Shown here one piece after another: positions 41,451 through 60,780 of a stretch of 64,000 bases of DNA. Position numbers and translations under genes: made by a program. The DNA lies in the NCBI RefSeq assembly GCF_032393985.1, contig NZ_CP135918.1, positions 2,666,001-2,730,000 of the forward strand. The letters are read 5' to 3'. The notes beneath the pieces were generated by a model, which saw only the letters and a list, made by a program, of their open reading frames with translations, had not been told where the DNA came from and searched no databases. Within the stretch, counting starts at the first letter, position 1. Every line of letters begins with the position of its first letter. Origin of the DNA: Fischerella sp. JS2 (GTDB lineage Bacteria; Cyanobacteriota; Cyanobacteriia; Cyanobacteriales; Nostocaceae).

Positions 41451-41621
41451 GCGCAAAAGACTGCATTGAATGTCATTTTGGTATTGGCTACTTTTTTACT
41501 TGCAGGTAAGCTAATCCTCAATTTCTTTGGCATTTCACTGGGTGTTCTACGGATTGCAAGAGGTTTAATTGTAGCTCACTTGTTAGGCGGAGAGCCAGTT
41601 TATAGTGTGTTGCTCAAATGA
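41451..41621 (+). pseudogene. MarC-family membrane protein fragment
   Basis: 57 codons between stops read AQKTALNVILVLATFLLAGK, then LILNFFGISLGVLRIARGLIV, the central helices of MarC proteins. A full protein has about 200 residues, so this is a remnant. The 41,220-41,705 gap holds nothing else. Confidence 0.65.
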
Positions 41622-41705
41622 GCTTGTGATAAATTGCAATCGATACCTCAAACAGACTCTGTTTAAGCTGCAACCATTACCTAAACAAAAAACACCAAAC
41701 TTAAC

Positions 41706-42425
41706 TTATCTAATCTGAGCAGATTTTGCCTCACTAATCCTTCTATTCAAAAGTTTTATACTAGTGTAAGCAACAAGCAAACTCAACAACTCCAGATGAA
41801 AAAATGTGATAAATGTAGCACCTCTGAGACTATTAAATATATCCCACAAAGCATGGAGTAAAACAGCTGTTAAAAAAGCTCGTAATACCTGCCAATTTAC
41901 CGCACGTCCTGCTTTCTCTCATTCTCTCGACAGTACGGCGCAGACCAGCCCAGTCCAAGCTGCGTGTCCAGCAGGAGATAACAGTCGGCGAGCAAATAAG
42001 ACCCCATCAAGGACAAGTAGATTCCCCTGCGATCGCAAAAGTGTAACGAAGGCATAACCCATTGTTTCCAGTGCAGCAAAACCCATTGCAGAAGCAGTTC
42101 CTAAAAGTATTCCCGTTGCCTCAGAACGCAGGTGACCTTTAAGATAAAATCCTAAAGGGAAAATTAACTTAGCACTTTCCTCAATTAATCCCACGCCAGG
42201 CATTGCTAGAAACACTGGGGTTTCTAGAACGTTGTACTCAAGGGTTCCTGCTACAAGTGTTCCTACTGCTCCTCCCCACAGCAAACAAGTAGCCATTGCT
42301 GGAAAAGACACTTCCCAGCTTGATAGAGTCTCGTAGAGGTAAGTTACGAAGGTAATAGGTATTAAAAAAGACCCAAGCAAAATGACGCTAGGAACAAAGT
42401 TAAGGTTATTGGTTGCTACGAGCAT
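41706..42425 (-). pseudogene. PrsW-family intramembrane protease gene with in-frame TGA
   Basis: 240 codons in one frame, interrupted by a TGA at 41921-41919 after 168 codons. Before it, the CPBP/PrsW motifs GLIEESAKLIFPLGF, FAALETMGYA and HAAWTG are complete; after it WQVLRAFLTAVLLHALWDIF continues with the third histidine motif and a last helix. Truncation would remove that motif and probably the activity. The frame is otherwise undamaged, so the stop is recent or an error. Confidence 0.8.
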
Positions 42426-42523
42426 TTTTTCAATTGCGTACAGGAGGAAAAGCCCACTAATATCAAGTTCGGTTAATCACTTAGAATAAAAAACCTCACA
42501 AGAACAGCCCCTTCACCCCTAAT

Positions 42524-42547
42524 CCCCACTCCCTTAGGGGAGTGGGG
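42524..42547. repeat. GC-rich hairpin repeat in intergenic region
   Basis: CCCCACTCCC (42524-42533) pairs with GGGAGTGGGG (42538-42547) inside a 110-bp GC-rich stretch (42,509-42,620) with further G and C runs, unlike the AT-rich surroundings. It resembles the dispersed 'ccctaatccccactccc' repeats of filamentous cyanobacteria. Confidence 0.55.
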
Positions 42548-42796
42548 CCCCCGAGTTCCCCAGAGGGACCCCCCATCCCCTCTCCTTAGCAAGAACAGGG
42601 GTGCCGAAGGCGGGGTGAGGTAAAAGGGAATTGTAAGTAATCATGCGAACTTGATATAATAAATATTTGAAACTACTTGCGTTTGATAAAACCCATATTG
42701 AAATGATGAGATGATAATCAGTATTGATTTAGGCAACCTCATCCATGCTAATTAAATCAGATATGCTGATTGAGGGCTATATCAACATAATTTTAT

Positions 42797-43564
42797 TTAC
42801 TTAATGACACTAGCAATCTCCGTGTAACCAAAGTAAATTGATAGGGCAATTAAAAAGATACTGTACAAGCGACTCAAAATTAGACCTGGCAAATGGAGGG
42901 CAAATTGGCTTCCCAAATAGGTAGATGGAAAAACTCCCACAGCTAGCCAACCTGTCAACTCCCAGTCAATATGTCCCAAAAAAGCATGGATAATTGTGGC
43001 GGGGGCTGCCATTAGTGTAACGGTTGCCAAGGAGGTTGCTAGAGCTGTTCGTAACCCCAACCCAATACCCAATTGATAGAGAGGGACTAACAAAAGTCCG
43101 CCACCATTGGCAAGCAAGCCATTGATTAATCCCAACAGGGGCGACCAATAGGGAATGATTCTTTCATGCAACTGTGCTTTCGTTTCAGGTAAGCTGCGAT
43201 TTCGCAGTCCACTTAAACCGTAAACTCCTACGGACAGGATAAACCCTGCCGTTAAAAGCATCAGGATTGTCCCTGGAAGAAATTCAGTAATCCAAGCTCC
43301 TAGTAACACACCAGGGAATCCCCAAAGACTTGTTAATAAAGCAATACGCCAGTAAATGAGGTGTTCCTTTCGATAGGCGATCGCGCCTCCGATTGCGCTT
43401 GGTAATGTAAGTGGAAGTGGACTAGCCAGAGCAATTAAAGCTGGTAGCCCTAACAGCCGTAGAATGGGCGTACCAATTGAACTCCCGCCTAAACCAAACA
43501 GCCCAGAACACAAACCCATGCCGACTCCAACCAATATTTCTAAAAACCAAGGAAGTGAAGTCAT
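42797..43564 (-). CDS. TauE/SafE-family sulfite exporter-like protein, second copy
   Basis: 255 residues, eight helices, with GLCSGLFGLGGSSIGTPILR at the start and NGLLANGGGLLLVPLYQLG in the second half. It belongs to the same family as the gene at 21163 but shares little sequence with it. No sulfur gene is next to it. Substrate unknown. Confidence 0.85.
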   Translation of the reverse strand: MTSLPWFLEILVGVGMGLCSGLFGLGGSSIGTPILRLLGLPALIALASPLPLTLPSAIGGAIAYRKEHLIYWRIALLTSLWGFPGVLLGAWITEFLPGTILMLLTAGFILSVGVYGLSGLRNRSLPETKAQLHERIIPYWSPLLGLINGLLANGGGLLLVPLYQLGIGLGLRTALATSLATVTLMAAPATIIHAFLGHIDWELTGWLAVGVFPSTYLGSQFALHLPGLILSRLYSIFLIALSIYFGYTEIASVIK

Positions 43565-43747
43565 GTTAAATAGAACCTGATATTTTTCATAAAGATTGAG
43601 TACGCCTACTAAATGCGTGATTGTAGTTATTTAATTTGGATAGACATCACTTTTTCAACTCTTTGACAAAATCCTGCAACATCAAGCTCTTAACTTAAAA
43701 AATATCAGTTTTAGCTGAATTAAGCACATCTGCTCACCAATAGAGAA

Positions 43748-43766
43748 ATCTTTCCGATTTCTTAAC
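43748..43766 (+). promoter_or_regulatory. TCTTTCC/TTCTT direct-repeat site 7
   Basis: ATCTTTCCGATTTCTTAAC, 13 nt, then TGTGAAATT (43780-43788). The only gene downstream is the broken lepB, about 200 nt on. Confidence 0.65.
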
Positions 43767-43983
43767 TTTTACCCCTTAATGTGAAATTGCAAACCGAGAT
43801 TACAGGAATTAAAAGCTATAAATACTTTAGACTGAAATTCTTAAATTTTTACTCCTAAAGACTTACTTTATGGCTAAAGCTAACACCAACACATTTCCTC
43901 ACTAATAACTCTTAGGATTTATCTCTGTCTAATACTTGTTATTTATTATCAGCACTATGTCTAATATTCGTCAATAAAAATTA

Positions 43984-44537
43984 CACTCGTCAAAGAATGA
44001 AAATATTTTATTTGAAACAATTAAAACAATTGGTTTAAGCTTGGTTCTCGCTTTTAGCATTCGCACATTTGTTGCTGAAGCCCGTTATATACCCTCTAGC
44101 TCAATGGAACCAACACTTCAAATTAATGACTGCTTAATTATTGATAAAAATAGCTATGATTTTATCTCACCTCAACGGGGTGATATTGTAGTTTTTAATC
44201 CGACAAAAATACTACGTTATAAAACTATCACGAAGCTTTTATTAAACGTGTAATTGGCTTACCAGGGGAAACGGTTGAAGTTAAGAATTGACTAGTTTAT
44301 ATTAATGATTCGCTTTTAAAAGAGAATTATCTTGAAGCTAAACCAGACTATCAATGGGGCCCTGTAATTGTACCAAATAATTCAGAGCGCTCAAAAGCCC
44401 AGCAGTATGGAGTAAATGCAGTTCCTGGGATCGCCATCAATTGAACACTTGTCCTGACTGGTAAACCGAGTCGAGAGCAACTTCAAGCTGTCGGTGTAGG
44501 TCAACCACTGAACTTCCTCTCAACTAAAAAAAGCTAA
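43984..44537 (+). pseudogene. Signal peptidase I (lepB) remnant joined to a thioredoxin-like C-terminus
   Basis: The first part reads ARYIPSSSMEPTLQINDCLI, with the catalytic Ser, then RGDIVVF and, after a frame change near 44225, AFIKRVIGLPGETVEVKN, TGA (44289-44291), LVYIND. The frame runs on through VIVPNNS straight into SKAQQYGVNAVPGIAIN, TGA (44442-44444), TLVLTGKPS and QAVGVGQPL. This second part is the end of a thioredoxin-like protein. Both TGA codons stand where Gly is expected. No start codon lies in frame, and the lepB C-terminus is lost by the fusion. Inactive. Confidence 0.8.
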
Positions 44538-44623
44538 CTCCTTACCAAAGCGACTTTCAAAATTTTTTGAATCGCTAGTACAGAAGATTAAAGCTAACTA
44601 GGCAAGGCTGAGTTGTTCAAAAT

Positions 44624-44662
44624 ATTTCATCCTGATTTCATCTTCATCTGGGAAATTAAATA
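44624..44662 (+). promoter_or_regulatory. ATTTCAT direct-repeat box 7
   Basis: ATTTCAT at 44624-44630 and 44635-44641, 15 nt, then TAAATA at 44657-44662. It precedes the lipoprotein gene at 44834 with a leader of about 165 nt. Confidence 0.75.
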
Positions 44663-44833
44663 CAGTGCTGAATCGTTAACACACTGCTTATCTCAACTAG
44701 ATGAGCAGCAATATCCCTTGAGGGTTTAAAAAATGCTCAATTCCATAGTTGAAGGTTCTATGGATGGGGATGTTTTTCTACCATTTTCTAACATTTATTT
44801 CTCAATTATCAATAATCAATGAGGAGTAAACCG

Positions 44834-45337
44834 ATGAAATCATTAAAAAAAAGCTTTGTAGTTTTAGCAAGTACAGGAATACTATTTTTAGGAGCTTGTA
44901 GTAATAGTAATCAAGCAGGAAATACAGAAAATAATCCATCCTCTTCTACAAATAATCCGTCTTCTATATCAAGTACTAATACTTCAGCTTCACCTGCTAT
45001 TAAAACAGAAGGGCAGCATGGAGAATCTCATGGAGGTCAAGTTGTAGAGACAGGGGCCTATCACTTAGAGTTTGTACCCGAAAAAGAGGCTAATGCAACT
45101 CACATGGATTTATATTTGCAAAAAGGCGATAATCACCAAGCAGTTCCTAACGCAAAAGTGACGGCTGATGTTCAACTGCCCGATGGCAAGCAGAAAACAA
45201 TACCTCTGACTTATGATGCCAGTGATAAACACTACACGGCGACACTTTCTGAAAAAGCTATCGGTCAGTATCAAGTGAAAGTTACTGCTGATATTGGAGG
45301 TGAAAAGGTTAACGGTCGGTTTAGTTTTAATCGGTAA
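44834..45337 (+). CDS. Metal-region lipoprotein, Ig-like fold
   Basis: 167 residues from ATG at 44834 (GAGGAG 10 nt upstream; the ATG at 44819 is part of that site). The lipoprotein signal ends in LFLGAC. A Ser/Asn-rich linker and EGQHGESHGGQVVETGAY lead to a beta-rich domain with KVTADVQLPDGKQKTIPL and QYQVKVTADIGGEKVNGRF. Domains of this kind occur near copper and cation efflux genes in cyanobacteria. Role unknown; it opens a run of two lipoprotein genes. Confidence 0.7.
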   Translation: MKSLKKSFVVLASTGILFLGACSNSNQAGNTENNPSSSTNNPSSISSTNTSASPAIKTEGQHGESHGGQVVETGAYHLEFVPEKEANATHMDLYLQKGDNHQAVPNAKVTADVQLPDGKQKTIPLTYDASDKHYTATLSEKAIGQYQVKVTADIGGEKVNGRFSFNR

Positions 45338-45382
45338 CTGCTTCCTGTGAAAGAATGCCCTAAGAAGCTTTTTGGAGAAAAA

Positions 45383-46100
45383 ATGAAGCAGTTTATTACT
45401 ACACTTGCCATCACTTCAACTCTTGTTATCACTCAAGCTTGCGCCTCACAAGTAAATAGGAGTGAAACACCAGACTCTAATGCTACCACCGTAAGTAATG
45501 CAAATCCCCATACGGATCACAATATGGAGGATTCTAAAACACCACAGGCAAAGGAGAATTCTCAATAGCGGTCATAACATGGGGAATTCCTATGATAGAC
45601 ATTCTGGTCATTCCAAGTTAGAACCAGCGATCGCTACTGCAAAGCTTACCCTCCCCACCAAAATTACTCCCAACACTTCTGTACCTATAATGATTGAAGT
45701 GAAAAAAAATGGTAAAACTATTGCTAATTTTGACAAATTCCAAGAACAATTAATGCATCTAATTGTTGTAAGTGATGATCTCCAATCTTTCAATCATATC
45801 CATCCCACATATAAAGTAAATGGACGCTTTGAGGTTCAAGCTAATTTTCTCCATCCAGGGGGTTACAGCCTTTTCAGCGATTACAAAGTAGCTGGAAAAG
45901 CAGAACAAGTTTCGGTGTTGAAAGCACAAGTTCCAGGTAAAAGTCCAGGTGCATCCACAATTGATTTATCTACTACAAAGACTTTTGGTAATACTAAGGC
46001 TAATCTCAAGTTATCTCAACCAACACTCAAAGCTGGACAAGAAGTTCATGTAATTTTCAACTTACAAGATACTGTCAGCAACCAACCACCGAAAGTTTGA
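45383..46100 (+). pseudogene. Second metal-region lipoprotein, frameshifted
   Basis: ATG at 45383 follows GGAGAAA. The lipobox ends in TQAC, and a His/Met-rich part (HTDHNMEDSK) leads to a frame change near 45565, after which GHNMGNSYDRHSGHSK continues. The following beta-rich part (SDDLQSFNHIHPTYKVNGRF, NFLHPGGYSLFSDYKVAGKA) is intact but stops at 46100 where relatives go on; further pieces lie in another frame up to 46300. Not functional as one protein; it overlaps nothing else. Confidence 0.75.
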
Positions 46101-46321
46101 AACCTTATCAGCCCTTCTGCCTTGCCCTTCGGGCTGAGAACACAAGCTACAACTGCCTTTCAGCCATTTTAGGGCTGAGCGATGTGCTTTTGACTAAGGT
46201 AATAAGTACAATAGGTGAGGAAAAAGCTGTTTATCCAAAACTCCATACCCTTTTTCCTGAAAAAACAGGATTTTTTATGCTTTATACATTGCAATCTTAA
46301 ATTTCTTTTTCCAAGCTGATT

Positions 46322-46360
46322 ATTTCATCTTGATTTCATAGTGACCATTCAAACTGTTTT
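46322..46360 (+). promoter_or_regulatory. ATTTCAT direct-repeat box 8, before DUF2808 gene
   Basis: ATTTCAT at 46322-46328 and 46333-46339, 15 nt, then TGTTTT at 46355-46360. Leader to 46430 about 63 nt. Confidence 0.65.
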
Positions 46361-46429
46361 TGTAGAGGTTTATTCACCAAAGTTAAACCTGAAATTTAGT
46401 TGAGATAGTTTGTTAATTTAACGGTCAAG

Positions 46430-46906
46430 ATGAAGAGAATATTATTTTATACTGCTGTATGTAGTGTGGCTATTACAGCTTTAATTTCTGTTGGCTATGC
46501 AACTGCGAAAACAGATAATAATAAGGTTGCTAATATTGACAATAATTTGCAATCTACTCCTACTGGCTGGCGGCTTGTTAAACAGACATTCCAGTTACAC
46601 ATTCCTAAAAATAGCAACGCTCTTTCCCAGCTAATTATTGACACTCCATCCACGGTAGCTGTGAGTAATGACATTGAGGTTTTAGACGAGCAAGGTGAAA
46701 AATTTAAAATTAATGTCTCTGCCGATGGCAGAAGGATTATCATAGATTTTCCTCAGCCAGTTACTTCTAATACTAAGCTCTTTATCAACCTAAACGAAGT
46801 CAAACAACCAATTTTTGGTTCTGCTTCTATATATCACCTCTCGGTTAAGGTCATTGGTAACAATAAAGAGATTCCTGTAGGTGTAGCTCAGTTCCCAAAT
46901 CTTTAA
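46430..46906 (+). CDS. DUF2808 secreted protein, copy 1
   Basis: 158 residues. Signal peptide near 1-25 (ends GYATA), then TPTGWRLVKQTFQLHIPKNS, the DUF2808 start, with RIIIDFPQPVTSNTKLFINL and VGVAQFPNL at the end. These are small beta-rich periplasmic proteins of cyanobacteria of unknown role, seen to respond to stress. The first of two tandem paralogues, each under its own ATTTCAT box. Confidence 0.85.
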   Translation: MKRILFYTAVCSVAITALISVGYATAKTDNNKVANIDNNLQSTPTGWRLVKQTFQLHIPKNSNALSQLIIDTPSTVAVSNDIEVLDEQGEKFKINVSADGRRIIIDFPQPVTSNTKLFINLNEVKQPIFGSASIYHLSVKVIGNNKEIPVGVAQFPNL

Positions 46907-46945
46907 TTTACAAAGCTTGACAACTATCTTAAAAATCCATCTAAA

Positions 46946-46984
46946 ATTTCATCTTGATTTCATTAACAATTGCCAAACTGGTAA
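46946..46984 (+). promoter_or_regulatory. ATTTCAT direct-repeat box 9, before DUF2808 gene
   Basis: ATTTCAT at 46946-46952 and 46957-46963, 15 nt, then TGGTAA at 46979-46984. Leader to 47224 about 235 nt. Confidence 0.65.
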
Positions 46985-47223
46985 ATAGGAGGATCATATC
47001 TCTGTTGGCAATAACTTTACTAGCAGCTTAAAACTGCTAACAGTAAATAGGCTATCTAACTTCCCCTAATTAATTGCTGAATTAAGGGGATAAGCTTATT
47101 ATGGTTTTTCTACAAATTTGTGATGCTTCAGTCAGTATCAGGTTAATTCAAAAAGTATGAACCTCAGCTTTAACTCTTTTACTTAAGCTTTAGTTGACAT
47201 AGTTGATTTATCGGAAATTAAAT

Positions 47224-47721
47224 ATGAAGAAATTACTGATATATACCACTACTTTAGCTCTGGCTAGCATAGCTCTGTTATCTCCTAGTTATGCAACTGC
47301 TAATACAGCTAATACAGATAATGGTAAAGTTCCTCATATTGACGGAAATGAACAATTTCCGCCTACACGCTGGCGGATTGTTAAACATACTATTCAGATC
47401 CATGTTCCTAAAAATAGCAAAGCTCTTACCGAACTAAGTATTAATTTTCCTAATACCATAACTATCAGTAGTGATATCAAAAATATCAAGATTGTGGATG
47501 AAAAAGAGCAAAAAATTAATGCAAATATTTCTGTCAATGATAGAAACATACAAATAGCTTTTGCTGAACCAGTTGCTCCTAACACCAAGTTTAATGTTGA
47601 ACTAAAGAATGTCAAAAGACGACTTGTAGGCAATGGTTATATCTATCAGCTATCGGCAAAATTTGTTGGTAGTGATGCAGAAATACCTATAGGTGTAGCT
47701 CAGTTTCACCTCTATTATTAA
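47224..47721 (+). CDS. DUF2808 secreted protein, copy 2
   Basis: 165 residues from ATG at 47224. Signal peptide ends near YATA. TRWRIVKHTIQIHVPKNSKA, IQIAFAEPVAPNTKFNVEL and IGVAQFHLYY parallel copy 1 along the whole length. Divergence between the two suggests an old duplication. Same family, same unknown role. Confidence 0.85.
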   Translation: MKKLLIYTTTLALASIALLSPSYATANTANTDNGKVPHIDGNEQFPPTRWRIVKHTIQIHVPKNSKALTELSINFPNTITISSDIKNIKIVDEKEQKINANISVNDRNIQIAFAEPVAPNTKFNVELKNVKRRLVGNGYIYQLSAKFVGSDAEIPIGVAQFHLYY

Positions 47722-47936
47722 TGTCAATAACTTTAGTTAATAAATTTATCCACTTTGTACTAATTAAGAATGTGGACTAAATTTAGTCTATATTTTTGAC
47801 ATTCTTAGCAAAGAATAACAGTTTTTTATCTTTCCTTAATCAAGGCGTTGACAAGGAGAATTTTTGTAGTGTAGAGATTATCAAAAATTAATATAAATAA
47901 ATAATTGAATGTAAAAAAATATCCAGCCTCAGCAAA

Positions 47937-47975
47937 ATTTCATTCTGATTTCATTTTTATCTGCCAAGCTAAGAA
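47937..47975 (+). promoter_or_regulatory. ATTTCAT direct-repeat box 10, before RppA-like regulator
   Basis: ATTTCAT at 47937-47943 and 47948-47954, 15 nt, then TAAGAA at 47970-47975. It is distal to box 11. The 47,722-48,268 gap has no gene. Confidence 0.72.
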
Positions 47976-48153
47976 TTAGCTCAATAGACTCCTTGCAAAA
48001 AATTACTTTTTATAACTCCTCTAATTAACCTCACTCCAAATTGCAGCAAGCGAGTCTACTGAGTTTTTTCTTGATTAATTATCTCCTGGCAACACTTTCA
48101 CTTACGTTAAAATCTTGTGAATTTAAGTCTTAAGTTTTATTTAAAGCCTAAAA

Positions 48154-48192
48154 ATTTCATTTTAATTTCATAAACCTCTGTCAACCTATTTT
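48154..48192 (+). promoter_or_regulatory. ATTTCAT direct-repeat box 11, before RppA-like regulator
   Basis: ATTTCAT at 48154-48160 and 48165-48171, 15 nt, then TATTTT at 48187-48192; a TATAAT also lies near 48200. Supports autoregulation of the response regulator that follows. Confidence 0.72.
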
Positions 48193-48268
48193 TAAAGGTA
48201 TAATCCTGTTACTAATTATGCTTGCTTCACAAATTTGCTACAAATCTCTAAATAACGATGAATTGTTT

Positions 48269-48973
48269 ATGCGGGTGCTGTTAGTCGAAGATGAACCGGA
48301 TTTAGGTGCTGCAATTAAGCGAACTTTAAATCAACAAAAGTACGTAGTTGATTGGGTTACGGACGGTACTGAGGCTTGGGCATATTTAGAAAATCGTTGG
48401 ACGCACTATACACTAGCTATTCTTGATTGGATGCTGCCAGGAATGTCAGGCTTAGAGTTGTGCCAAAGATTACGGAAGAACAACAATCCTCTACCTGTGT
48501 TGATGCTAACAGCTAAGGATAGGATGGAAGACAAAGTTGCAGGGTTGGATGCGGGTGCAGATGACTACTTAGTAAAGCCGTTTGGCATGGCGGAATTGTT
48601 AGCGCGGTTACGGGCATTACAGAGGCGATCGCCTCACTTCCAACCAAAGGAATTAACTGTTGGCAACCTGAGTCTAGATTACAGCAGTAGTGCCATTGTG
48701 AGTCAAAACGCTTGTGGAGGCAAACAAGTAATTCCCCTTACTAATAAGGAATTCCAACTACTAGAGTATTTTATGAAGCACCCAAATCAAATTGTTACCA
48801 CAGAACAAATTCGCAATCAACTTTGGGAAGTGAGTGCAGAACCTGCTAGTAATGTGGTAGCAGCTCAAGTGCGTTTGCTACGCCGTAAGTTAGCAAATAG
48901 TGGCTGCACAAACCCAATTGAAACCTTACATGGTATGGGGTATCGTCTAAATCTTACCGATGAATCAAAATAA
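48269..48973 (+). CDS. OmpR-family response regulator, RppA/NrsR-like
   Basis: 234 residues from ATG at 48269, at the start of the receiver (MRVLLVEDEPDLGAAIKRTL); an ATG at 48218 is 17 codons earlier. Asp53 (AILDWMLPG) and VKPFGMAELLARLRAL are intact; the winged helix has ASNVVAAQVRLLRRKL and LHGMGYRLNL. This is the RppA/NrsR type that controls metal or redox genes in Synechocystis. Two ATTTCAT boxes stand upstream, so it is a prime candidate for the box-binding protein. Its kinase partner is a remnant. Confidence 0.88.
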   Translation: MRVLLVEDEPDLGAAIKRTLNQQKYVVDWVTDGTEAWAYLENRWTHYTLAILDWMLPGMSGLELCQRLRKNNNPLPVLMLTAKDRMEDKVAGLDAGADDYLVKPFGMAELLARLRALQRRSPHFQPKELTVGNLSLDYSSSAIVSQNACGGKQVIPLTNKEFQLLEYFMKHPNQIVTTEQIRNQLWEVSAEPASNVVAAQVRLLRRKLANSGCTNPIETLHGMGYRLNLTDESK

Positions 48974-49338
48974 ACTGTTTAATCTGACTCGTGTTCGTTT
49001 AGCGCTGTAGTATGCGCTAGTTATGGCTTTTATTTTAAGTCTGTCTGGATTCGGTCTCTACAAAGCAGTATCTCATGCCCATTGGATAGCCTTAGACCGA
49101 GAACTAGAGTCTGTAGCAGGAACTTTGCACGTCCCGTAGTACTGGTGGTTCTGGATTGGGATTAGCTATTGCTATGGCAATTGTTCAGGCACACCAAGGC
49201 AATTTGAAAGTACAAAACGAATTAGGTAAAGGTAGCATTTTTACTGTTGAATTACCCTTCAATACCCCCGCGCTAAAAAGTTTTTGCTCTATTGAGCCTT
49301 TTAAAGGGCTGTATCGTCGCCAAGGCAAACGCATCTAG
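48960..49338 (+). pseudogene. RppB/NrsS-type histidine kinase with nonsense codon and internal deletion
   Basis: ATG at 48960 overlaps the response-regulator stop. The kinase N-terminus reads NKLFNLTRVRLAL, then TAG at 49008-49010 (Trp expected), YALVMAFILSLSGFGLY, a membrane helix. Near 49130 the frame jumps straight into STGGSGLGLAIAMAIVQAHQ, the G2 box, and runs to 49338. The H, N and G1 boxes and most of the sensor are gone, so it cannot phosphorylate. Confidence 0.85.
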
Positions 49339-49687
49339 ATTTTTTCCATCAATGTGATACTGTTGTGGACGCCATACGTTCCACATTACGAGATTACTGT
49401 ACTTTGATACACACCTCAACAAAACATCAATAGCATATAGAAACTAAGCGAAAAGTATGGCTTCACAGAGCTATTGAGAATATATAGAATTAATTCAGAA
49501 GCAGTGGCAGAAGTTAGCTCAGATGAGCAACACATAGAACTGATAAGAAAAATTAATTTTTAATAAAAATAAAAATGTGAGAATTCAAACAAAAATCACG
49601 TGCGAGAATTCTGTTGTTATGTTTGGGGTAACTTTCTAGGCAGGGAAATTAGGTAGAAATGGAAAGGCTTGCACTCTCAAAGGACTT

Positions 49688-49981
49688 TTGGCACGGGGTA
49701 TCGATTTTGATTTGGAACGGGATGTTTTGGCTTTAGTCCAACGTGCTACAACTAACAACCAAGAAGACAAGCAAACGTCAATGAATACGTTGATTGCCAA
49801 AATTCAAAATCATCCTCAAAACTTATCTATGTATACGTCAGATTCCCACAGCCACAATGTCGCCCACAAGAGCCAATCTGCTAATGTTTCTGAGTTGAGT
49901 AACTCCCAACGGCAAGATTGCATACTTAAGTCTAAAGTGAATTATTTAAAGCGCCACAAAAGTGCAGAATTAGACCTCTAA
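49688..49981 (+). other. Unassigned open frame between pseudogenes
   Basis: 97 codons rich in Gln, Asn, Ser and His, beginning ARGIDFDLERDVLALVQRAT. No ribosome site, no known domain. It may be the tail of a lost gene (the upstream bases continue as coding-like sequence in another frame). The rest of 49,339-50,040 shows no gene. Confidence 0.3.
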
Positions 49982-50163
49982 TACTTATGACTCACCGCAA
50001 CCCAATTCTAAAGGTTTGATAATTAACTACAAGTTATACTCATTTTCCAAGAAAGCCAGTATTCGTTCCTGCTTGGATGTGAGACTCCCAGGCAGGATCT
50101 GCTAATCTTCCCAGTGCTTCCACTACAGCCGCATGGGTTGGCTCAAAATCTTTATAAATTTCG

Positions 50164-50383
50164 TCAGCAACTGTAGTATTCGTGGTTGCGAAAACCTTCG
50201 AGAATTACTTCGCATTCTTCTTTTGTAAAAGGTTTGGGACGAGATTTTTTAGGAACCTTTAGTCCTGTTAGTGTTTCCGTCCAAGGATTACTTTCGGGAA
50301 GTAGCTTGTGTTTAATTGCCCAAGCCCAACAGGACTTTAAAACCGTGCTTGCGATCGCGAACTGTAATCGGTTTTTGTAGTGA
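50164..50383 (-). pseudogene. Tyrosine integrase fragment next to tRNA-Ala
   Basis: Minus strand from 50383: HYKNRLQFAIASTVLKSCWA, then WAIKHKLLPESNPWTETLTG and KPFTKEECEVILEGFRNHEYY, up to a TGA at 50166. This is the core-binding part and start of the catalytic domain of a phage-type integrase. A different protein tail (DEIYKDFEPTHAAVVEALGR and on) continues in frame to about 50040. The catalytic R-H-R-Y region is absent. Confidence 0.7.
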
Positions 50384-50384
50384 A

Positions 50385-50457
50385 TGGAGAATAGGAGACT
50401 CGAACCCCTGACCTCTGCGGTGCGATCGCAGCGCTCTACCAGCTGAGCTAATTCCCC
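50385..50457 (-). tRNA. tRNA-Ala (anticodon CGC)
   Basis: 73 nt on the minus strand. Acceptor GGGGAAT pairs with ATTCTCC, including the G3-U70 pair that identifies alanine tRNA. D arm GCTC/GAGC, anticodon stem CTGCG/CGCAG around loop ATCGCAC (anticodon CGC), T arm AGGGG-TTCGAGT-CTCCT. The 3' CCA is not encoded. An integrase fragment begins directly at its 3' end, the usual place for island integration. Confidence 0.92.
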
Positions 50458-50465
50458 AAATAGTT

Positions 50466-50516
50466 ATTGGTTAGTGGTTAGTTGTTTACCACTAACTACT
50501 AACTACTAACAATTTC
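50466..50516. repeat. Heptanucleotide STRR (ACTAACT type)
   Basis: Repeats of CTAACTA/TTAGTGG with slight variation between the tRNA and the HAD gene. Such seven-base tandem repeats are typical of heterocystous cyanobacteria. Confidence 0.7.
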
Positions 50517-50521
50517 CTATA

Positions 50522-51250
50522 TTAACATTCACCTGCGGTTGGTTGGCACTGGTTTTTTAAATATACTTCCTGTACACGTTCTAGTTCTAAATCAGTTAGA
50601 TAATCTACAGTCCAGTTTGCTAGACGTTGAAGCATGTGAAATGGGTAAGTATTTGCTACACCCACAACTTGCATCCCGGCGCGTTTTGCTGCTTGGATAC
50701 CAGCTGGAGTATCTTCAATTGCCAAACACTCATTTGGTTGTAAATCCAAATCTGCATAAGCTTGGTTAAGGCGTTCTACTGCTAACAAGTAACCATCAGG
50801 TTCTGGTTTACTGGTGATGATGTCATCTCCAGCTATAATCACAGGAAAGTATTCAGTTAGCTTGGCACGTTCCAGAACAAGTTCTATTTCTTTACGAATT
50901 GCACCACTAACTAGTGCTATGTTTAAGTTGCGCGATCGCACCTGAAATATCAAGTCATCTAAACCAGAATATAAAGGCAACTTTTCCAGCTTTTCTAATT
51001 CCAAAGCATATAGTTCTGCTTTCTTGATTAACAGTCGAGTTAAGTACTCTTGTGTCACAACTCTACCGCGACGAGTGAGTAAATCATGAAAACAGGCGCG
51101 ATCGCTTCGTCCCAGAGAAGCTTGACGTTCATCACTTCGTTGAGGTTGGAGGTTTTCTTGAATGAGAATCTCATCAATTAATTGTAGGTGGATGGACTCA
51201 TCATTGATGATGACGCCATTAAAATCAAACAGAACTGCCTTTAAAGTCAT
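50522..51250 (-). CDS. HAD-family hydrolase, beta-phosphoglucomutase-like
   Basis: 242 residues. Motif I is FDFNGVIIND: the nucleophile Asp is present but the usual second Asp of DXD is Asn, as in a subset of cyanobacterial relatives. Motif II SGA, Lys and motif IV IEDTPAGIQAAKRAGM are present. A sugar-phosphate phosphatase or mutase is likely; with the Asn a mutase role is less sure. Its ATG overlaps the methyltransferase stop, so they are one unit. Confidence 0.85.
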   Translation of the reverse strand: MTLKAVLFDFNGVIINDESIHLQLIDEILIQENLQPQRSDERQASLGRSDRACFHDLLTRRGRVVTQEYLTRLLIKKAELYALELEKLEKLPLYSGLDDLIFQVRSRNLNIALVSGAIRKEIELVLERAKLTEYFPVIIAGDDIITSKPEPDGYLLAVERLNQAYADLDLQPNECLAIEDTPAGIQAAKRAGMQVVGVANTYPFHMLQRLANWTVDYLTDLELERVQEVYLKNQCQPTAGEC

Positions 51251-52194
51251 GCCGTTGTATCAAAAGCTGGAGACGGAAAACCCTGTAAGTCGTTGTTGTC
51301 TAGTATGCTATCTGGTGATGCCGGAGTATACTGTTGCATCTTTTGCACAGTTTCTCCTGTTGTGGAAATCGGTTTGATACCGCTAGTCACCTGATTTGTC
51401 CACCACACATCCTGAGTTTGTACTCCTGCAAATCCTGCTGCACCCATCCACGCATCCACACTGCCATTTGCATACTCACGAATATAAGGCTCTTCAAATA
51501 CATCATTGAGCCATTCTATCTGACGTAGGGTCTTTTGATTACCATCTAAGATCAGCACTTGTCCACCGACGCGTAATAAGCGAAATGCCTCTCGTAGAAT
51601 TGCCTGAGAAATAGCTGCTGGTGTTTCGTGGAATAACAAATTTGCTGTGACTAAGTCAAAAGAGTTACTTGGTAATCTAGTATCTTCTGCATTGCCATGT
51701 CGCCAATGTATATGCAAATTAGCACTTTCGGCTTTGTGGGAGGCCCTTACTAACATATAAGGAGATAAATCCAAACCAATAACTTCGGCATCAGGAAAAG
51801 CCTGCTTGAGCATTAATGTTGTTGATCCTGTACCGCAACCCAAATCTATTATGCGTTGCGGCACGACTTTGATCGCATTAATTAAGCTGTAGCGAACCCA
51901 AGTTTCATTTGGTGGTAAAACGTATTGGGTAACAGCATCGTAGCTCACCGCCGCACCAGAGTTCAGATATCCACCTTTGATTCCGTGGAAGTTTTGGCTG
52001 CTGTAGTAAGTAGGCATTGTAACATCAGCACGTCGAAAGCGATCGCTTTCTTTTTCCCAGTCCACACTTTTGGCATAATTCTGTAACTCTTCTTCATTAA
52101 TCAAAAGACGTACTACAGGCGACACAAACCGCTCCCAGATTGTATTTTCACGAATCGTCATAAGATGTTTGAAATTTGATGAACTGTTAAGCAT
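51247..52194 (-). CDS. Class I SAM-dependent methyltransferase
   Basis: 315 residues; an internal ATG at 52161 could be the start. N-terminal helical part (WERFVSPVVRLLINEEELQN), then motif I IIDLGCGTGSTTLML, GLDLSPYMLVRA, DLVTANLLFHETP and LLRVGGQVLILDG. Translationally coupled to the HAD gene by a four-base overlap. Substrate unknown. Confidence 0.85.
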   Translation of the reverse strand: MLNSSSNFKHLMTIRENTIWERFVSPVVRLLINEEELQNYAKSVDWEKESDRFRRADVTMPTYYSSQNFHGIKGGYLNSGAAVSYDAVTQYVLPPNETWVRYSLINAIKVVPQRIIDLGCGTGSTTLMLKQAFPDAEVIGLDLSPYMLVRASHKAESANLHIHWRHGNAEDTRLPSNSFDLVTANLLFHETPAAISQAILREAFRLLRVGGQVLILDGNQKTLRQIEWLNDVFEEPYIREYANGSVDAWMGAAGFAGVQTQDVWWTNQVTSGIKPISTTGETVQKMQQYTPASPDSILDNNDLQGFPSPAFDTTA

Positions 52195-52529
52195 GAGGCA
52201 AAAGGGAAAACTCCCAACAGCCCTAGTTTCAAAAGTTGGAATGTTACATTTAATTGTGTCTAGCTACTTAAAAGTAGGTTTATTAGTATTTATTATTATT
52301 TACAAATTTTAATATATTTTTGCCAGCTTGATAAAAGAGGTGAGATGACCTGAAAAAGGCAGAAAGAGGAGCCACTGCATCCTTAGAAATTCCCGAGGGC
52401 AATGCTCGCCAAAGCTTGCATCCAGCAATCATTGCCCTGGTTGTAGCATGTGGCGTGGTAGTAGACAGCGATGCTGAAGCAAAGAAAGTTTTTTCATCCG
52501 TTTTGGTTTACGTAGTTCATGAAATTATA

Positions 52530-52569
52530 TTGACATTTATATTATCCTGTGTTACATATATACTACAAA
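52530..52569 (+). promoter_or_regulatory. Possible promoter region before rtcB
   Basis: TTGACA at 52530-52535, then AT-rich sequence; 22 bases at 52548-52569 (TGTGTTACATATATA-N-TACAAA) recur at 63828-63847-type position near a second promoter. The 52,195-52,774 gap also contains an unassigned open stretch around 52,350-52,500 (EIPEGNARQSLHPAIIALVV) and no clear gene. Confidence 0.35.
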
Positions 52570-52601
52570 ATGTAGTAAGCAATTGCTCGCTCAAATTTAA
52601 G

Positions 52602-52626
52602 GGCTAAAGCCGTGACTACGAACTTT
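52602..52626 (+). repeat. Dispersed GGCTAAAG...ACTACGAACTTT repeat
   Basis: The 25-base motif at 52602-52626 matches 59372-59396 at most positions (GGCTAAAG, ACTACGAACTTT). It lies outside genes both times. A known style of dispersed repeat in Nostocales. Confidence 0.5.
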
Positions 52627-52774
52627 TACAACTCATCAAAACTAATGACATAGACACCACACTACACAACCACACAAGTTCTGAGGGGAAAGGTTCCCAA
52701 CTAAAAAGTTAGGGATCTGAAAATCTCTACAACTAACAACCATTAATTATTAACCACCAACTATTTTTAAAAAT

Positions 52775-53956
52775 ATGCCTTACGAAAAATTAGAAATTTC
52801 TACATTATCTCCTGTTTTATCTTGGGCAAATCATCCTTTGGCAACAGAAGAAACCAAGATGGCAAAAAATGTAGCATCACTACCATTTGTATTTAAACAT
52901 GTAGCATTAATGCCGGATGTTCACTTGGGTAAAGGTGCGTTAGTAGGTTCTGTAATTGCCACTAAAGAAGCAATTATTCCTGCGGCTGTCGGTGTTGATA
53001 TTGGTTGCGGGATGGCTGCTATCAAAACACCATTCAAAGGTGAACAATTAGAAGGTAAACTCAAGAAGATTCGCTTAGATATCGAAGCCGCAATTCCTAC
53101 AGGATTTAACGAAAATAAAGAAGTCGAAAAAGCTGTAACAAATTGGCAAAGCTGGCGAGATTTTAAAGACTTGCATCCAGGGGTGCAAAACTTGCAAGAA
53201 AAAGCGATGCGACAAATGGGTTCTCTAGGCGGAGGTAATCATTTTATTGAAGTTTGTCTCGATACAGAGAACCAAGTTTGGTTGATGTTACATTCTGGTT
53301 CTCGCCATATCGGAAATGTGCTAGCACAGTCTCACATAAATACGGCAAAAGAATTAGCAAAAATGGCAGGTAATAATTTGCCTGATCCAGATTTAGCTCA
53401 TTTTGTGGCTGGTACACTAGAATTCCAAACATATTGGCATGATTTACAGTGGGCGCAAGCATACGCACGCTTCAACCGCGATGTAATGATGGCACGTTTT
53501 AAACACATTATCGAAAAGCATTTAGCAGGAGGGAAAGCGACGAAACCTTTACTAGAAGTAAATTGCCATCATAATTATGCTGAACAAGAAGTACATTTTG
53601 GTGAGGAAGTGTATGTAACTCGTAAAGGTGCAGTGCGTGCCCAAACAGAAGATTATGGCATTATACCTGGTTCAATGGGGGCAAAATCATTCATTGTGAA
53701 AGGTAAAGGTTGTGCTAATAGCTTTTGTTCTTGTAGTCATGGTGCTGGTCGTTTACTATCAAGAAATAAGGCAAAAAATGTCTATACACTTGATGATTTA
53801 ATTGAACAAACAAAAGGGGTAGAATGTCGCAAAGACACAGGTGTTTTGGATGAAATACCAGGTGCTTATAAACCTATAGATGAAGTGATGACAAATCAAT
53901 CTGATTTAGTGGAAGTAGTAGCTACACTCAAGCAGGTTATTTGTGTGAAAGGTTAA
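52775..53956 (+). CDS. rtcB: RtcB-family RNA ligase
   Basis: 393 residues. Metal-binding motifs ALMPDVHLGKGALVGSVIAT, GVDIGCGMAA and GGGNHFIEV are in place, and CSHGAGRLLSR holds the histidine that takes GMP. RtcB joins 2',3'-cyclic-phosphate RNA ends to 5'-OH ends with GTP. It is shorter than E. coli RtcB (408) but complete. It stands alone, no rtcA or archease next to it, and has a strong terminator. Repair of cleaved tRNA is the likely role. Confidence 0.93.
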   Translation: MPYEKLEISTLSPVLSWANHPLATEETKMAKNVASLPFVFKHVALMPDVHLGKGALVGSVIATKEAIIPAAVGVDIGCGMAAIKTPFKGEQLEGKLKKIRLDIEAAIPTGFNENKEVEKAVTNWQSWRDFKDLHPGVQNLQEKAMRQMGSLGGGNHFIEVCLDTENQVWLMLHSGSRHIGNVLAQSHINTAKELAKMAGNNLPDPDLAHFVAGTLEFQTYWHDLQWAQAYARFNRDVMMARFKHIIEKHLAGGKATKPLLEVNCHHNYAEQEVHFGEEVYVTRKGAVRAQTEDYGIIPGSMGAKSFIVKGKGCANSFCSCSHGAGRLLSRNKAKNVYTLDDLIEQTKGVECRKDTGVLDEIPGAYKPIDEVMTNQSDLVEVVATLKQVICVKG

Positions 53957-53981
53957 ATTCATTTGTGTGCGTCTATTTAGG

Positions 53982-54014
53982 AAAAACCTGGTTTCTTCCA
54001 GAAACCAGGTTTTT
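53982..54014 (+). terminator. Rho-independent terminator after rtcB
   Basis: AAAAACCTGGTTTC (53982-53995) and GAAACCAGGTTTTT (54001-54014), perfect 14-bp stem with loop TTCCA and a T tract, 26 bases past the rtcB stop. Confidence 0.9.
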
Positions 54015-54184
54015 TAATGATTTGATGAAAACTGAAGGATGAAGTATAAACTATGAAGTATTAAATAATTTAGTTTTTATCCCTTTGCTCTTCAGCTTCA
54101 CCCTACCCTACAGAAAGCCCTGCTAGTTCATCTACAGCTTTCACCCTCACTTCAGCCTTTATCTTTCATCCTTCATCCTTCTCT

Positions 54185-54640
54185 ATGATTGGCAATAGCA
54201 CTCAATTAATACTTGTAATTGAAGACAGCGACGAAGATTTTGAAGCTTTACGGCGAGTGATGTACCGTCAAGAAGTATTAAATCCTATTCTTCGTTGTGC
54301 TGATGGCGACGAGGCACTAGACTATCTTTACCACACAGGAGCCTACGGCGATCCTAAAACTGCTCCTCGCCCCTCGCTCATCTTACTTGACCTGAACTTA
54401 CCAGGAACAGATGGGCGAGAATTATTAGAACAAATTAAGCAGGATCAAAACCTCAAAGATATTCCTGTTATAGTATTTACTACCTCTTCCAATCCCAGAG
54501 ATATCGAAATATGTTATCGCAATAATGCAGCTAGTTATATTCTCAAACCAATTGACATTAATAAATTAAAACAAACGCTACAAAACTTTCTTACTTATTG
54601 GTTGGATATTGTGGTTCTTCCCGATAATATCGGCAGGTAG
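54185..54640 (+). CDS. Rcp1-like single-domain response regulator
   Basis: 151 residues, receiver only. ED acidic pair at 13-14, Asp69 (ILLDLNLPG), Thr in FTTSSNPRD and Lys in LKPI. Rcp1/CheY-type regulators serve phytochrome or chemotaxis-like kinases without binding DNA. It overlaps no gene and is two bases before a hybrid kinase with a second receiver, which is probably its partner. Confidence 0.9.
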
Positions 54641-54642
54641 TC

Positions 54643-56652
54643 ATGGCGCAACAACAGTTTATCATTTTGATCATTGATGATTGTTCGGAAGACCGCGCAG
54701 TCTATCGCCGTTATCTGTTACAAGACCCACAACACCACTACCAAATTCTAGAAGAGGAAACGGGAGAAAGCGCCCTACAATTGTGTCAGCAACTCCAGCC
54801 TGACAGTATATTATTGGATTTTTTGTTACCAGATATGGATGGGCTGGAATTTCTCACAGAATTAAAACAGCAGAGCAACGGCAGTATGCCAGCTGTAATT
54901 ATGTTAACAGGACATGGCAATGAAACTGTTGCTGTGCAGGCAATGAAAAGTGGTGTTCAAGACTACTTGGTGAAAGGAGATATCACAGCAGAGAGTTTAC
55001 GCTTTACTATCCAGTCTGCGATTGAAAATATCCAACTACGCCAGCAGTTGCAACGTAGTGAAGAACGTTTCCGTACCTCCGTTGAAAATATGCTGGACTG
55101 TTTCGGTATTTACTCAGCAATTCGGAATGAAGCAGGGGAAATTCTAGACTTTAGAATAGATTATTTGAACGCCGCAGCTTGTGAATCTAACTTGATGAGC
55201 AAGGAAGAACAACTAGGTAAAAGTTTGTGCGAAGTTTTACCTGGGCATAGAAAATATGGCTTGTTTGAGCAGTATTGTCAGGTGGTAAATACAGGCAAAC
55301 CGTTTGTGAAAGAATCACTGATCTACACAGATATATTTGGTAAACACCAATTCACTAGAGCCTTTGATATCCGTGTGGCTAAATTGGGAGATGGCTTTGT
55401 GGCATCTTGGCGGGATGTCACGAAAAAAAAGCAGATAGAACAAGCATTGCGAGAAAGCGAAGAGCGTTATCGGTTTTTATCTGAAGCTATACCACAAATA
55501 GTATGGATTTGTGATGCGAACGGTGGATGTGAATATCTCAATCAACGATGGTATGAATTTACCGGACAAGCTGTTGAGCAAGGGATTGGATCTGGTTGGT
55601 TGGAAGTTGTGCATCCAGAAGATACGCAACGAGTCATGCAAACATTTACACAGTCTTTAAATACAGGAAAACTGTACGAAGTAGAATTGCGCTACCGTTG
55701 TCATGACCAAAGCTATCATTGGTTTTTAGCAAGAGCTTTGCCCAAAAAGGATGAGCAAGGACGGATTGTAAAATGGTTTGGTACAAGTACAGATATAAAT
55801 GAGCGTAAACAATTAGAAGCAGAACGTGCCCATCTTTATCAACTTGAGCAAGCTGCTCGTGCGGAAGCAGAAGCAGCAAATCGTGCTAAAGATGAGTTTG
55901 TGGCTATGGTATCTCATGATTTACGTTCTCCTCTCAATGCCATTCTGGGTTGGGCGAAACTGCTACAAAGTCGTAAACAGGATGAAACAACTATCATCCG
56001 TGCTTTGCAAACTATCGAACGCAATGCTTTATCTCAAGCAAAACTTATAGATGACTTGTTGAATATGTCCCGCATACTCCGGGGTCAGCTAGAGTTGCAG
56101 CTATACCAAGTCAATCTTGTCACTATTATCCAGACAGCATTAGAAACTGTCTACCCAAGCGCTAATGACAAAAGTATTTATCTAGAGTCTAAGCTTGATG
56201 ATGCAGTGCCACCAATTATTGGTGATCCGAATCGCTTGCAGCAAATTTTAGGAAATGTGCTTTCTAATGCGATTAAGTTCACTTCTGAAGGAGGGCGGGT
56301 GGAAATACGATTAGATAGGGTAGTAAAAAACACAAATAAAAGGCATGGGGATCAGGGGATAAGGGAGACAAGGGGCAATGCGGATAATGAGAATATGAGG
56401 AATAGATTCTCTGCATCTAACTTCTATGCTCAAATCACAGTTACTGACACAGGTATCGGTATCAGTCCTGAGTTTTTACCTCATATTTTTGAACGTTATC
56501 GTCAGGTAGAATCCTACAAACAAGGTGGTTTAGGATTAGGTTTAGCGATCGCTCGTCATTTAGTAGAATTGCATGGCGGAACTATCGAAGCAACTAGCGA
56601 TGGTGAAGGTAAAGGTACTACTTTCACCATCTTGTTGCCATTTAGAGGTTAG
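54643..56652 (+). CDS. Hybrid sensor kinase: REC-PAS-PAS-HisKA-HATPase
   Basis: 669 residues, no membrane helix. A receiver at 1-125 (Asp59 in ILLDFLLPD) is followed by two PAS domains (about 140-265 and 275-400, the second with SEERYRFLSEAIPQIVW). HisKA has His425 in MVSHDLRSPLNAILGW; HATPase has N, G1 (DTGIGISPEF) and G2 (GGLGLGLAIARH). The N-terminal receiver suggests a phosphorelay with the partner regulator just upstream. Signal unknown. Confidence 0.92.
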   Translation: MAQQQFIILIIDDCSEDRAVYRRYLLQDPQHHYQILEEETGESALQLCQQLQPDSILLDFLLPDMDGLEFLTELKQQSNGSMPAVIMLTGHGNETVAVQAMKSGVQDYLVKGDITAESLRFTIQSAIENIQLRQQLQRSEERFRTSVENMLDCFGIYSAIRNEAGEILDFRIDYLNAAACESNLMSKEEQLGKSLCEVLPGHRKYGLFEQYCQVVNTGKPFVKESLIYTDIFGKHQFTRAFDIRVAKLGDGFVASWRDVTKKKQIEQALRESEERYRFLSEAIPQIVWICDANGGCEYLNQRWYEFTGQAVEQGIGSGWLEVVHPEDTQRVMQTFTQSLNTGKLYEVELRYRCHDQSYHWFLARALPKKDEQGRIVKWFGTSTDINERKQLEAERAHLYQLEQAARAEAEAANRAKDEFVAMVSHDLRSPLNAILGWAKLLQSRKQDETTIIRALQTIERNALSQAKLIDDLLNMSRILRGQLELQLYQVNLVTIIQTALETVYPSANDKSIYLESKLDDAVPPIIGDPNRLQQILGNVLSNAIKFTSEGGRVEIRLDRVVKNTNKRHGDQGIRETRGNADNENMRNRFSASNFYAQITVTDTGIGISPEFLPHIFERYRQVESYKQGGLGLGLAIARHLVELHGGTIEATSDGEGKGTTFTILLPFRG

Positions 56653-56735
56653 TTAGTAGTTAGTAGTTGGTAGTTAGTTGCTCAGTTTTTTATCACTAAC
56701 TATTTCCACTAACCATTAACCACTAACCACTAACC
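56653..56735. repeat. Heptanucleotide STRR between hybrid kinase and guaA
   Basis: TTAGTAG/ACTAACT repeats in both orientations, about 80 bp, between the two convergent genes. Confidence 0.7.
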
Positions 56736-56736
56736 T

Positions 56737-58359
56737 TTATTCCCACTCGATAGTTCCAGGTGGCTTGGAGGTAATATCGTAAACTACCCGGTTAACTCCT
56801 TTAACTTCGTTGACAATCCGGTTGGAAATCACCTCTAGTACGTCGTATGGTACACGCGCCCAGTCTGCTGTCATACCATCTTCACTGGTGACGATGCGTA
56901 AGACAATGGGATAAGCGTAGGTACGTTGATCACCCATTACGCCCACGCTCTTAATTGGCAACAATACGGCAAAAGCTTGCCAGTATTCATGGTACAAGCC
57001 CCTTTGATTGATCTCTTGCCGGACAATTAAATCGGCATCCCGCAAAATCTTTAAGCGTTCGGCAGTGATTTCGCCCAAAATCCGAATCGCTAAACCTGGG
57101 CCAGGAAAAGGATGACGCTGTACGATTTCTTCTGGCAAGCCAATAGAACGACCGACTTTACGGACTTCATCTTTAAATAGTTTCCGTAGTGGTTCTACCA
57201 ATTTAAATCGTAGATCTTTGGGTAAACCACCAACATTGTGATGGCTCTTGATTTTCACTGCAACTCGTTCGCCTGTCTGTGGATCAACGTTGGTGTCAGC
57301 AGATTCAATCACGTCTGGATATAGCGTACCTTGCGCTAAATAATCAAAGGGCCCAAGGCGTCTTGATTCCTCTTCAAATACTCTAATAAATTCGTGTCCA
57401 ATAATACGACGTTTTTCTTCTGGTTCAGTAACACCACTGAGAGCTTTTAAGAAGCGATCGCGAGCATTAACGTACTCTACAGGTATATGGAACTGCTCTT
57501 GAAATAACTTCAATAATCGCTCTGGTTCATACTTCCGCATGAAGCCTTGGTCAATAAAAACACAAGTTAATTGCTCACCGATCGCTTTATGCAGCAAAAA
57601 GGCAAGAGTAGAGGAATCAACACCACCAGACAAGGCCAACAGCACCCGCTTGTCACCTACTTTGGCGCGAATTTCACGAATTGATTCTTCGACAAAAGCG
57701 GCGGTTGTCCAAGTCGGTTCACACTCGCAAATGTGGTAAACAAAATTGCGAATTAATGGCAGACCACCAATAGAATGAACTACTTCTGGATGGAACTGGA
57801 CGCCATAGAGTTTACGGTTGTGATCAGCGATCGCAGCACAAGGAGTATTTTCTGTATGTGCCAACAATTCAAACCCTGATGGCATTGATGTCACTGAGTC
57901 ACCATGACTCATCCACATAGTTGTGCCATCTTCGACGTTGGTCAGTAAGTCTGTGGGATCATCTATATATAATGATGCCTTACCATATTCAGCTAGGTCA
58001 GCTTTGGCTACTTCCCCACCCAACTGCTGCACCATCAATTGCATACCGTAGCAAACACCTAAGATGGGAATTCCTAAATGCCAAATTTCTGGGTCGCATT
58101 TGGGAGCGCCTTGGTCATAAACTGAACTAGGACCACCAGAGAGGATGATTCCCTTAGGGTTGAGCTTTCGCAACTGTTCAATAGTGGTGCGATAGGAAAG
58201 AACTTCAGAATAAACTTGAGTTTCTCGAATTCGGCGGGCTATCAGTTCAGAATACTGAGAACCAAAATCGAGAATTACAATCATTTGGCGATTGATTTGT
58301 CCCAAATCTTCTACAATTTGAGACGCTTGTTCTGTTGGTAGGGTCACCGCTGTACTCAT
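56737..58359 (-). CDS. guaA: GMP synthase (glutamine-hydrolysing)
   Basis: 540 residues. Class I glutamine amidotransferase with nucleophile Cys in [15 protein letters not shown] and His-Glu in HPEVVHS; ATP pyrophosphatase loop [14 protein letters not shown]-terminal dimer domain ends KPPGTIEWE. It converts XMP to GMP in the cytosol. A core housekeeping gene, not linked to its neighbours. The start is fixed by ATG at 58359. A gap of 440 bases with repeats separates it from the next gene. Confidence 0.97.
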
Positions 58360-58689
58360 GATCAGGAGAGGTGTGTAATGTAAAAAAATTTCGCTCTACG
58401 GTCTTGCTAACACTATGTATTCCTCAGCTTTCTCAAGCTTTTAGGGTTAAACTAACCCTCAACAAACGCTAGTAAACCGCGCTTGCCTTACCTACGTATT
58501 TGTTAATGGTATTAAGAAGAAAAAGTTACCCTAGAGTGGTTAGTGAAAAATATATTTATTGGGGATTGTTATGATTATTCATAATAAATTAACATAATTT
58601 TGCGATTCGTGAACAAGCTGTTTCGCTTTTGATGAATATGAGAATTGGGGATCGGGGTGGTGGGGAGATGGGGTGTGAGGGGTGTGAGG

Positions 58690-58800
58690 GGTATTAAACC
58701 ACTAACTACTAACTACTAATGTACAGACGCGATGTTCCTCGCGTCTCTACTAACTACTAACTACCAACAATCAACCATCAACCATCAATAACCAACCAAC
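58690..58800. repeat. STRRs with an embedded AGACGCGA hairpin
   Basis: ACTAACT/ACTACTA heptamers flank AGACGCGA-N6-TCGCGTCT (58724-58745), an 8-bp stem often seen dispersed in Nostocales. The 58,360-58,802 gap holds no gene. Confidence 0.65.
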
Positions 58801-58802
58801 AC

Positions 58803-59323: not shown

Positions 59324-59371
59324 AAGAATAGTGTAAGTTATCAGTAGTATGCGACTCTAACCTTTTTTGAC

Positions 59372-60779: not shown

Positions 60780-60780
60780 G

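Follow-up and report, generated by a model that had tools for sequence, protein, structure and literature searches.

The window analysed here (bases 2,666,001-2,730,000 of a 7.02-Mb single-contig genome, numbered 1..64000 below) very probably holds one end of a 73-kb genomic island that a tyrosine integrase inserted at tRNA-Ala(CGC), with the junction between the tRNA and an integrase remnant as its tRNA-side border (attL). The island is ordinary in kind and well supported; its interest lies in the route by which its integrase decayed, in the reuse of the same site for other cargo, and in a possible exchange of ends.

A direct repeat of the tRNA end bounds 73 kb

According to ARAGORN, tRNA-Ala(CGC) is the sole tRNA of the window. 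When a 38-bp pattern from the 3' half of this tRNA was searched for in the 7.02-Mb genome with up to 3 mismatches, exactly two occurrences were obtained, both on the minus strand; the reversed control had 0 occurrences, and shuffled patterns never matched, not even a 22-mer with 3 mismatches allowed. The full repeat is 41 bp, and its two copies are identical, in direct orientation and 73,014 bp apart.

50384..50458, minus strand: tRNA-Ala(CGC), intact, the insertion target (ARAGORN)
50383..50423, minus strand: attL, 41-bp repeat copy (tRNA 3' half plus ATT)
G000:C1:2643369-2643409, minus strand: attR, second 41-bp repeat copy, 22.6 kb left of window base 1
1..50382, no strand: portion of the island inside the window; the rest, including attR, lies to the left

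The initial annotation had seen the tRNA end only once in the window and had placed the other border outside. This was correct, since neither an inner or nested att copy nor a border inside the window was found at up to 3 mismatches, and the upstream direct repeat for which it proposed a search was recovered as an exact match on the same strand. Because the second copy lies 22.6 kb to the left, the 50-kb block that had been taken for all or part of an island is a part of the 73-kb one. No step in GC content was seen at the tRNA border.

We infer the following order of events. The integrase would have made its crossover in the 3' half of tRNA-Ala(CGC), the element bringing an identical 3' half with it and the displaced half coming to lie at the far border as attR; the tRNA would have stayed whole because the element supplied that identical half. 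After insertion the island would have lost its integrase, and exchange involving an integron, IS elements, an intron and plasmids would have altered its cargo. Other islands that tyrosine integrases target to tRNA genes, of the Islander/TIGER kind (PMC12884075), also have a whole tRNA, an adjacent integrase, a 3'-half repeat at the far end and accessory cargo; unlike those, the present island has an integrase that is a short remnant and a far end that is chimeric. In the part of the open-licence literature on cyanobacterial islands, integrative/conjugative elements and metal resistance that was covered, nothing was evidently on this tRNA-Ala(CGC) site.

The integrase is reduced to a remnant of its middle part

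The minus-strand frame leaving the tRNA consists of mid-integrase sequence and is open back into the tRNA. Window 50170-50391 is 93% identical (206/222 nt) to integrase DNA of Fischerella muscicola PCC 7414 (G002), a member of the same genus as the host; subtracting the ~9 bp at the start of this overlap, which belong to the tRNA end, leaves ~50170-50382 as integrase-derived.

50170..50382 (right end approximate), minus strand: integrase remnant, ~codons 136-207 of 371, frameshifted, without start or catalytic part

The frameshift is of one base, and no catalytic residue should remain in the remnant, given where we take the catalytic residues of this family to lie. With a 77-aa remnant query, 28 of 60 genomes, the host included, gave matches at E<=0.01; the one in G002 is an intact frame of 379 codons, 90% identical (E 5e-36). 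The 67-aa remnant piece alone had no Pfam match at E<=1. These data confirm that the fragment annotated at the 3' end of tRNA-Ala(CGC) is a tyrosine-integrase remnant. It had been placed at 50164-50457, one or two bases past the tRNA; it does begin within a few bases of the tRNA, but that interval also contains the tRNA itself.

The hexamer TTCTCC aligns both at the tRNA end and near codon 135 of the PCC 7414 integrase, 559 bp further on. The aligned sequences are most simply read as a 559-bp deletion in the host, compared with PCC 7414, between these hexamers; it took the ~150-bp leader, the putative arm motif of attL and about the first 135 codons. By a second event, everything past codon 207, including the catalytic half, was lost. 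As the integrase is down to a short remnant, the island would have lost its mobility and is probably immobile.

Related integrases occur at the same tRNA and elsewhere

The best intact relatives of the remnant were found in G002 (90%) and G023 (71%), both beside tRNA-Ala(CGC); the G002 integrase (contig 200) is a 100% match to NZ_AJLK01000200.1 of Fischerella muscicola PCC 7414. A search of a species-genome collection with these two integrases returned 6 loci, 4 of them at tRNA-Ala(CGC).

Fischerella muscicola PCC 7414: intact
Pelatocladus maniniholoensis HA4357-MV3: 99%, intact
Scytonematopsis contorta: 78%
Scytonema RU_4_4: partial, the piece examined being without a tRNA
Richelia CSU_2_1: 42%, at tRNA-Val
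PCC 73103: codons 93-168 only

Intact 371-aa relatives lie at tRNA-Ala(CGC) in PCC 7414, the Pelatocladus MAG and the Scytonematopsis MAG, and the intact protein carries Phage_integrase, SAM-like and arm-binding domains. The integrase of PCC 73103 has decayed separately at the same tRNA site; 5 kb past that remnant (L126 8652-9452) lies what seems by eye to be a disrupted rhodopsin gene, in two adjacent frames. More distant relatives in the 60-genome search had tRNA-Pro, tRNA-Phe or tRNA-Thr/Tyr nearby. A scan of viral contigs (viral_contigs) gave no relatives of the intact integrases, and a viral origin is thus unsupported.

An integrase-panel survey of 17 relative downstream flanks, of which those of G002 (1.3 kb), G061 (2.4 kb) and G026 (5.8 kb) are short, detected the intact family in G002, G023 and G061, a fragment in G064, and a different integrase ~5 kb from the tRNA in G015; the other 12 flanks had no integrase match. 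In G030, two whole tRNA-Ala(CGC) genes were observed 11.3 kb apart (L092 8028-8100 and 19362-19434), with an integrase match near the first, which we read as another element at tRNA-Ala(CGC), one that duplicates the whole gene.

The outer flank is conserved and the inner flank is variable

50522..51250, minus strand: conserved HAD-type core gene that flanks the tRNA on its outer side
39063..44383: segment with G001 homologs near the tRNA, inverted and without integrase

The HAD-type gene adjoins the tRNA in 14 of 15 relative loci (the miss being G015) and also in L122 and L126, which bears out the view that core genes lie to the right of the tRNA. Few genes downstream of the tRNA are common to the genomes; with the outer side conserved and the inner side variable, the locus has the picture of an insertion hotspot. 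The cargo is not present at the site in 15 of the 17 relative flanks, several of which are short, and the exceptions are G001, with four genes, and G004. Relatives that keep the genes of 1-50 kb in place without an integrase, which the initial annotation had named as evidence against an island, were encountered for a small part of the block: in G001, homologs of window 39.1-44.4 kb lie in inverted order less than 10 kb from the tRNA, the repeat occurs once and no integrase was matched; in the 16 other flanks, the only island DNA of at least 150 bp was a 152-bp stretch in G004 (76%). The genes shared with G001 may be older residents of the tRNA site.

Comparison with an empty site, also proposed at the outset, found no relative in which the tRNA is joined to the left flank of the host island. 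That outer flank at attR comprises an SDR gene, an ssuA-like remnant and transporter genes (names by eye). In PCC 7414, the SDR/ssuA-like/transporter cluster is on contig 101 and attR borders a UlaG-like/transaldolase-like cluster; the UlaG-like cluster of the host is at 0.75 Mb, beside other genes. The best SDR matches (70-79%) in G005, G006, G027, G030, G032 and G034 lie more than 1 Mb from the tRNA repeat, although some could be paralogs, and a search for the rest of the ssuA-like gene (named by eye) produced the attR-adjacent fragment and one weak distant match only. Rearrangement after insertion is likely. Three observations weigh against a single clean insertion: the empty site that was sought and not found, an outer flank unlike that of PCC 7414, and the four island genes near the G001 tRNA.

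Motifs and modules at the att ends

2643482-2643489, outside the window to the left: CTAGATAA motif at the host attR
2643526-2643561, outside the window to the left: 36-bp end segment common to tRNA-Phe half-sites

Inside the far repeat copy, host DNA matches the DNA inside the second tRNA-Ala copy of PCC 7414, a sister species, at 93% (189/204 nt, repeat included). The CTAGATAA motif lies here, and matching motifs were present at the att ends of five other genomes (G002, G061, G023, G009 and G064). It is ~70-80 bp inside the attR repeats of the host, G002, G023 and G009, and ~108 bp past the tRNA in G002, G061, G023 and G064; it was not present in the host attL, in the G009 attL, or in tRNA flanks without this integrase (G001, G003, G004 and G022). 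The attR motif is one of 4 occurrences in 100 kb of host sequence, and the ~150-bp integrase leader contains three such motifs in both PCC 7414 and Pelatocladus. The att ends are partly homologous, so these occurrences are not independent observations. We read CTAGATAA as a putative arm-type site of this integrase.

Host DNA at 2,643,370-2,643,570 follows PCC 7414, and from 2,643,526 rightward to 2,648,609 four segments resemble Pelatocladus contig 11 at 88-93%. As judged by these similarities, the host attR end is a chimera, PCC 7414-like on one side and Pelatocladus-like on the other. The 36-bp segment leads into a tRNA-Ala att end in the host and PCC 7414, and, by eye, into a tRNA-Phe 3' half at two places in Pelatocladus and one in PCC 73103; ARAGORN detected no whole tRNA at these tRNA-Phe half-sites. 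Across the order, 243 drawn genomes (17 others of the host's family) gave a match in the host genome only, a search that is no census because the draw omits G002, G061 and G064, which carry the segment or a close form. Since the segment borders either a tRNA-Ala or a tRNA-Phe half-site, elements aimed at one or the other target may have exchanged ends there. Tentatively, and with less than even expectation of being right, we suggest that elements in Fischerella and its relatives use tRNA-Ala(CGC) as a common docking site for differing metal-related cargo, metal efflux in the host and V-nitrogenase in PCC 7414, and that they trade end modules at a segment resembling the tRNA-Phe anticodon arm.

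The cargo is a mosaic

1814..3386: IS200/IS605 pair, with a TnpB-type frame (1814-2938, minus strand) and a transposase (2985-3386, plus strand)
5865..28370: metal-efflux block (DUF305, CusB/CzcA, MFS, TauE, MBL, ArsR and two-component genes)
2661903-2662865 (genome), plus strand, left of the window: integron integrase (TIGR02249, 474.6 bits against a cut-off of 265)

The cargo is a mosaic of a plasmid-like metal-efflux block, an integron integrase, IS200/IS605 and a group II intron. Window 5.9-28.4 kb is colinear with large Nostocales conjugative plasmids at ~89-90% identity. The Nostocales conjugative plasmid pANSO36B has a metal-efflux block with the same genes in the same order at ~89% identity; in contrast to pANSO36B, the block here is chromosomal and within an island, and the TnsA/TniQ neighbours of the plasmid block were not seen among the scanned island ORFs. 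No plasmid covered 80% of either 25-kb query (the best reached 38%), and the 16 kb left of the window were matched by 5 plasmid records covering at most 9%. Family scans of 53 of the 80 island ORFs of at least 80 aa identified no relaxase or secretion genes, and nothing in that set would class the island as an ICE.

In the region 4-12 kb left of the window (L008 4438-12865), the integron integrase is accompanied by small minus-strand genes, which run away from it, and by attC-like boxes. A single candidate place came out of a strict attC scan, and repeats resembling the boxes recur in this region but occur elsewhere too. A short cassette array may lie beside the integron integrase. The island left of the window also contains a group II intron reverse transcriptase, a BrnA antitoxin and a split nrdB-like gene. 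At window 31273-32794, a histidine-kinase-like gene was observed in three short frames (two assigned by eye), a decaying two-component gene.

V-nitrogenase genes beside the att end of PCC 7414

The PCC 7414 island (contigs 109 and 200) has the same tRNA, a 90% identical integrase and the same att end as the host island, but differs in its intact integrase, in a vnf cluster among the cargo by the att end, and in its outer flank. Inward from the PCC 7414 attR, contig 109 carries a VnfD-CAAD fusion, cytochrome-oxidase-like genes and the vnf cluster (all but VnfD named by eye), and the cluster was observed at 13.9-40.6 kb (L109, L087), on the island side of the att copy. For that reason V-nitrogenase may be island cargo, and the vnf cluster may lie inside the PCC 7414 island if the assembly is right; no tRNA-integrase end was found in the part of contig 109 read beyond its first 12.6 kb.

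The fusion (L087 5956-8028, plus strand, PCC 7414 contig 109) is a 690-aa VnfD (TIGR01860, 999 bits) joined to a C-terminal CAAD membrane domain; the other PCC 7414 vnfDG copy (L153) has, by eye, a VnfG-like tail where L087 has CAAD. Nothing in the open-licence literature was evidently on a CAAD domain with nitrogenase. The host genome had no VnfD match at E<=1e-100. V-nitrogenase genes of PCC 7414 have been reported previously (PMC4284476), and plasmid-borne vnf genes with proposed transfer are described in PMC6645180, the main text of which makes no mention of Fischerella or of a genomic island.

Alternative readings of the 73-kb interval

The 73 kb between the real att ends could instead be an accretion of several elements, perhaps with displaced chromosome, built up by repeated insertion and rearrangement. 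This is possible though on balance unlikely: it would accommodate the outer flank that differs from PCC 7414, the chimeric attR end, the inverted part of the block that G001 holds near the tRNA without an integrase, and the adjacency of plasmid-like, integron and IS parts, yet there are two repeat copies only, and with no inner copy found there is no sign of where another such element would end within the block. That the region is ordinary chromosome, with an isolated integrase fragment and a fortuitous repeat, is very improbable. The missing GC step and empty site count in favour of that view, but the exact 41-bp direct match, with an adjoining end and CTAGATAA motif common to PCC 7414, is not chance, and the shuffled patterns yielded nothing comparable.

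The remnant frame that is open back into the tRNA raised an SSV-type arrangement, in which the att site would lie within the integrase gene and divide it, the other half being at the far border. This was rejected because attL is intact in PCC 7414 and Pelatocladus, and it has next to no probability: the genes of intact relatives start ~150 bp past the tRNA, no integrase start was found in the 2 kb inside attR, and a deletion explains the tRNA-remnant junction. A single island at tRNA-Ala(CGC), later stripped of its integrase, is the reading that we retain.

Implications

Both borders have been placed for a 73-kb block, the integrase of which has decayed beyond the reach of the usual domain search. 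The junction suggests one route to island permanence, in which a small deletion anchored at the tRNA end takes the start of the integrase and its likely binding site and spares the tRNA. If ends are indeed traded, exchange at the tRNA-Phe-like segment would let an island swap its tRNA target and keep its cargo. Furthermore, V-nitrogenase as apparent island cargo in PCC 7414 would offer a chromosomal route for the spread of vnf genes beside the plasmid route proposed earlier (PMC6645180).
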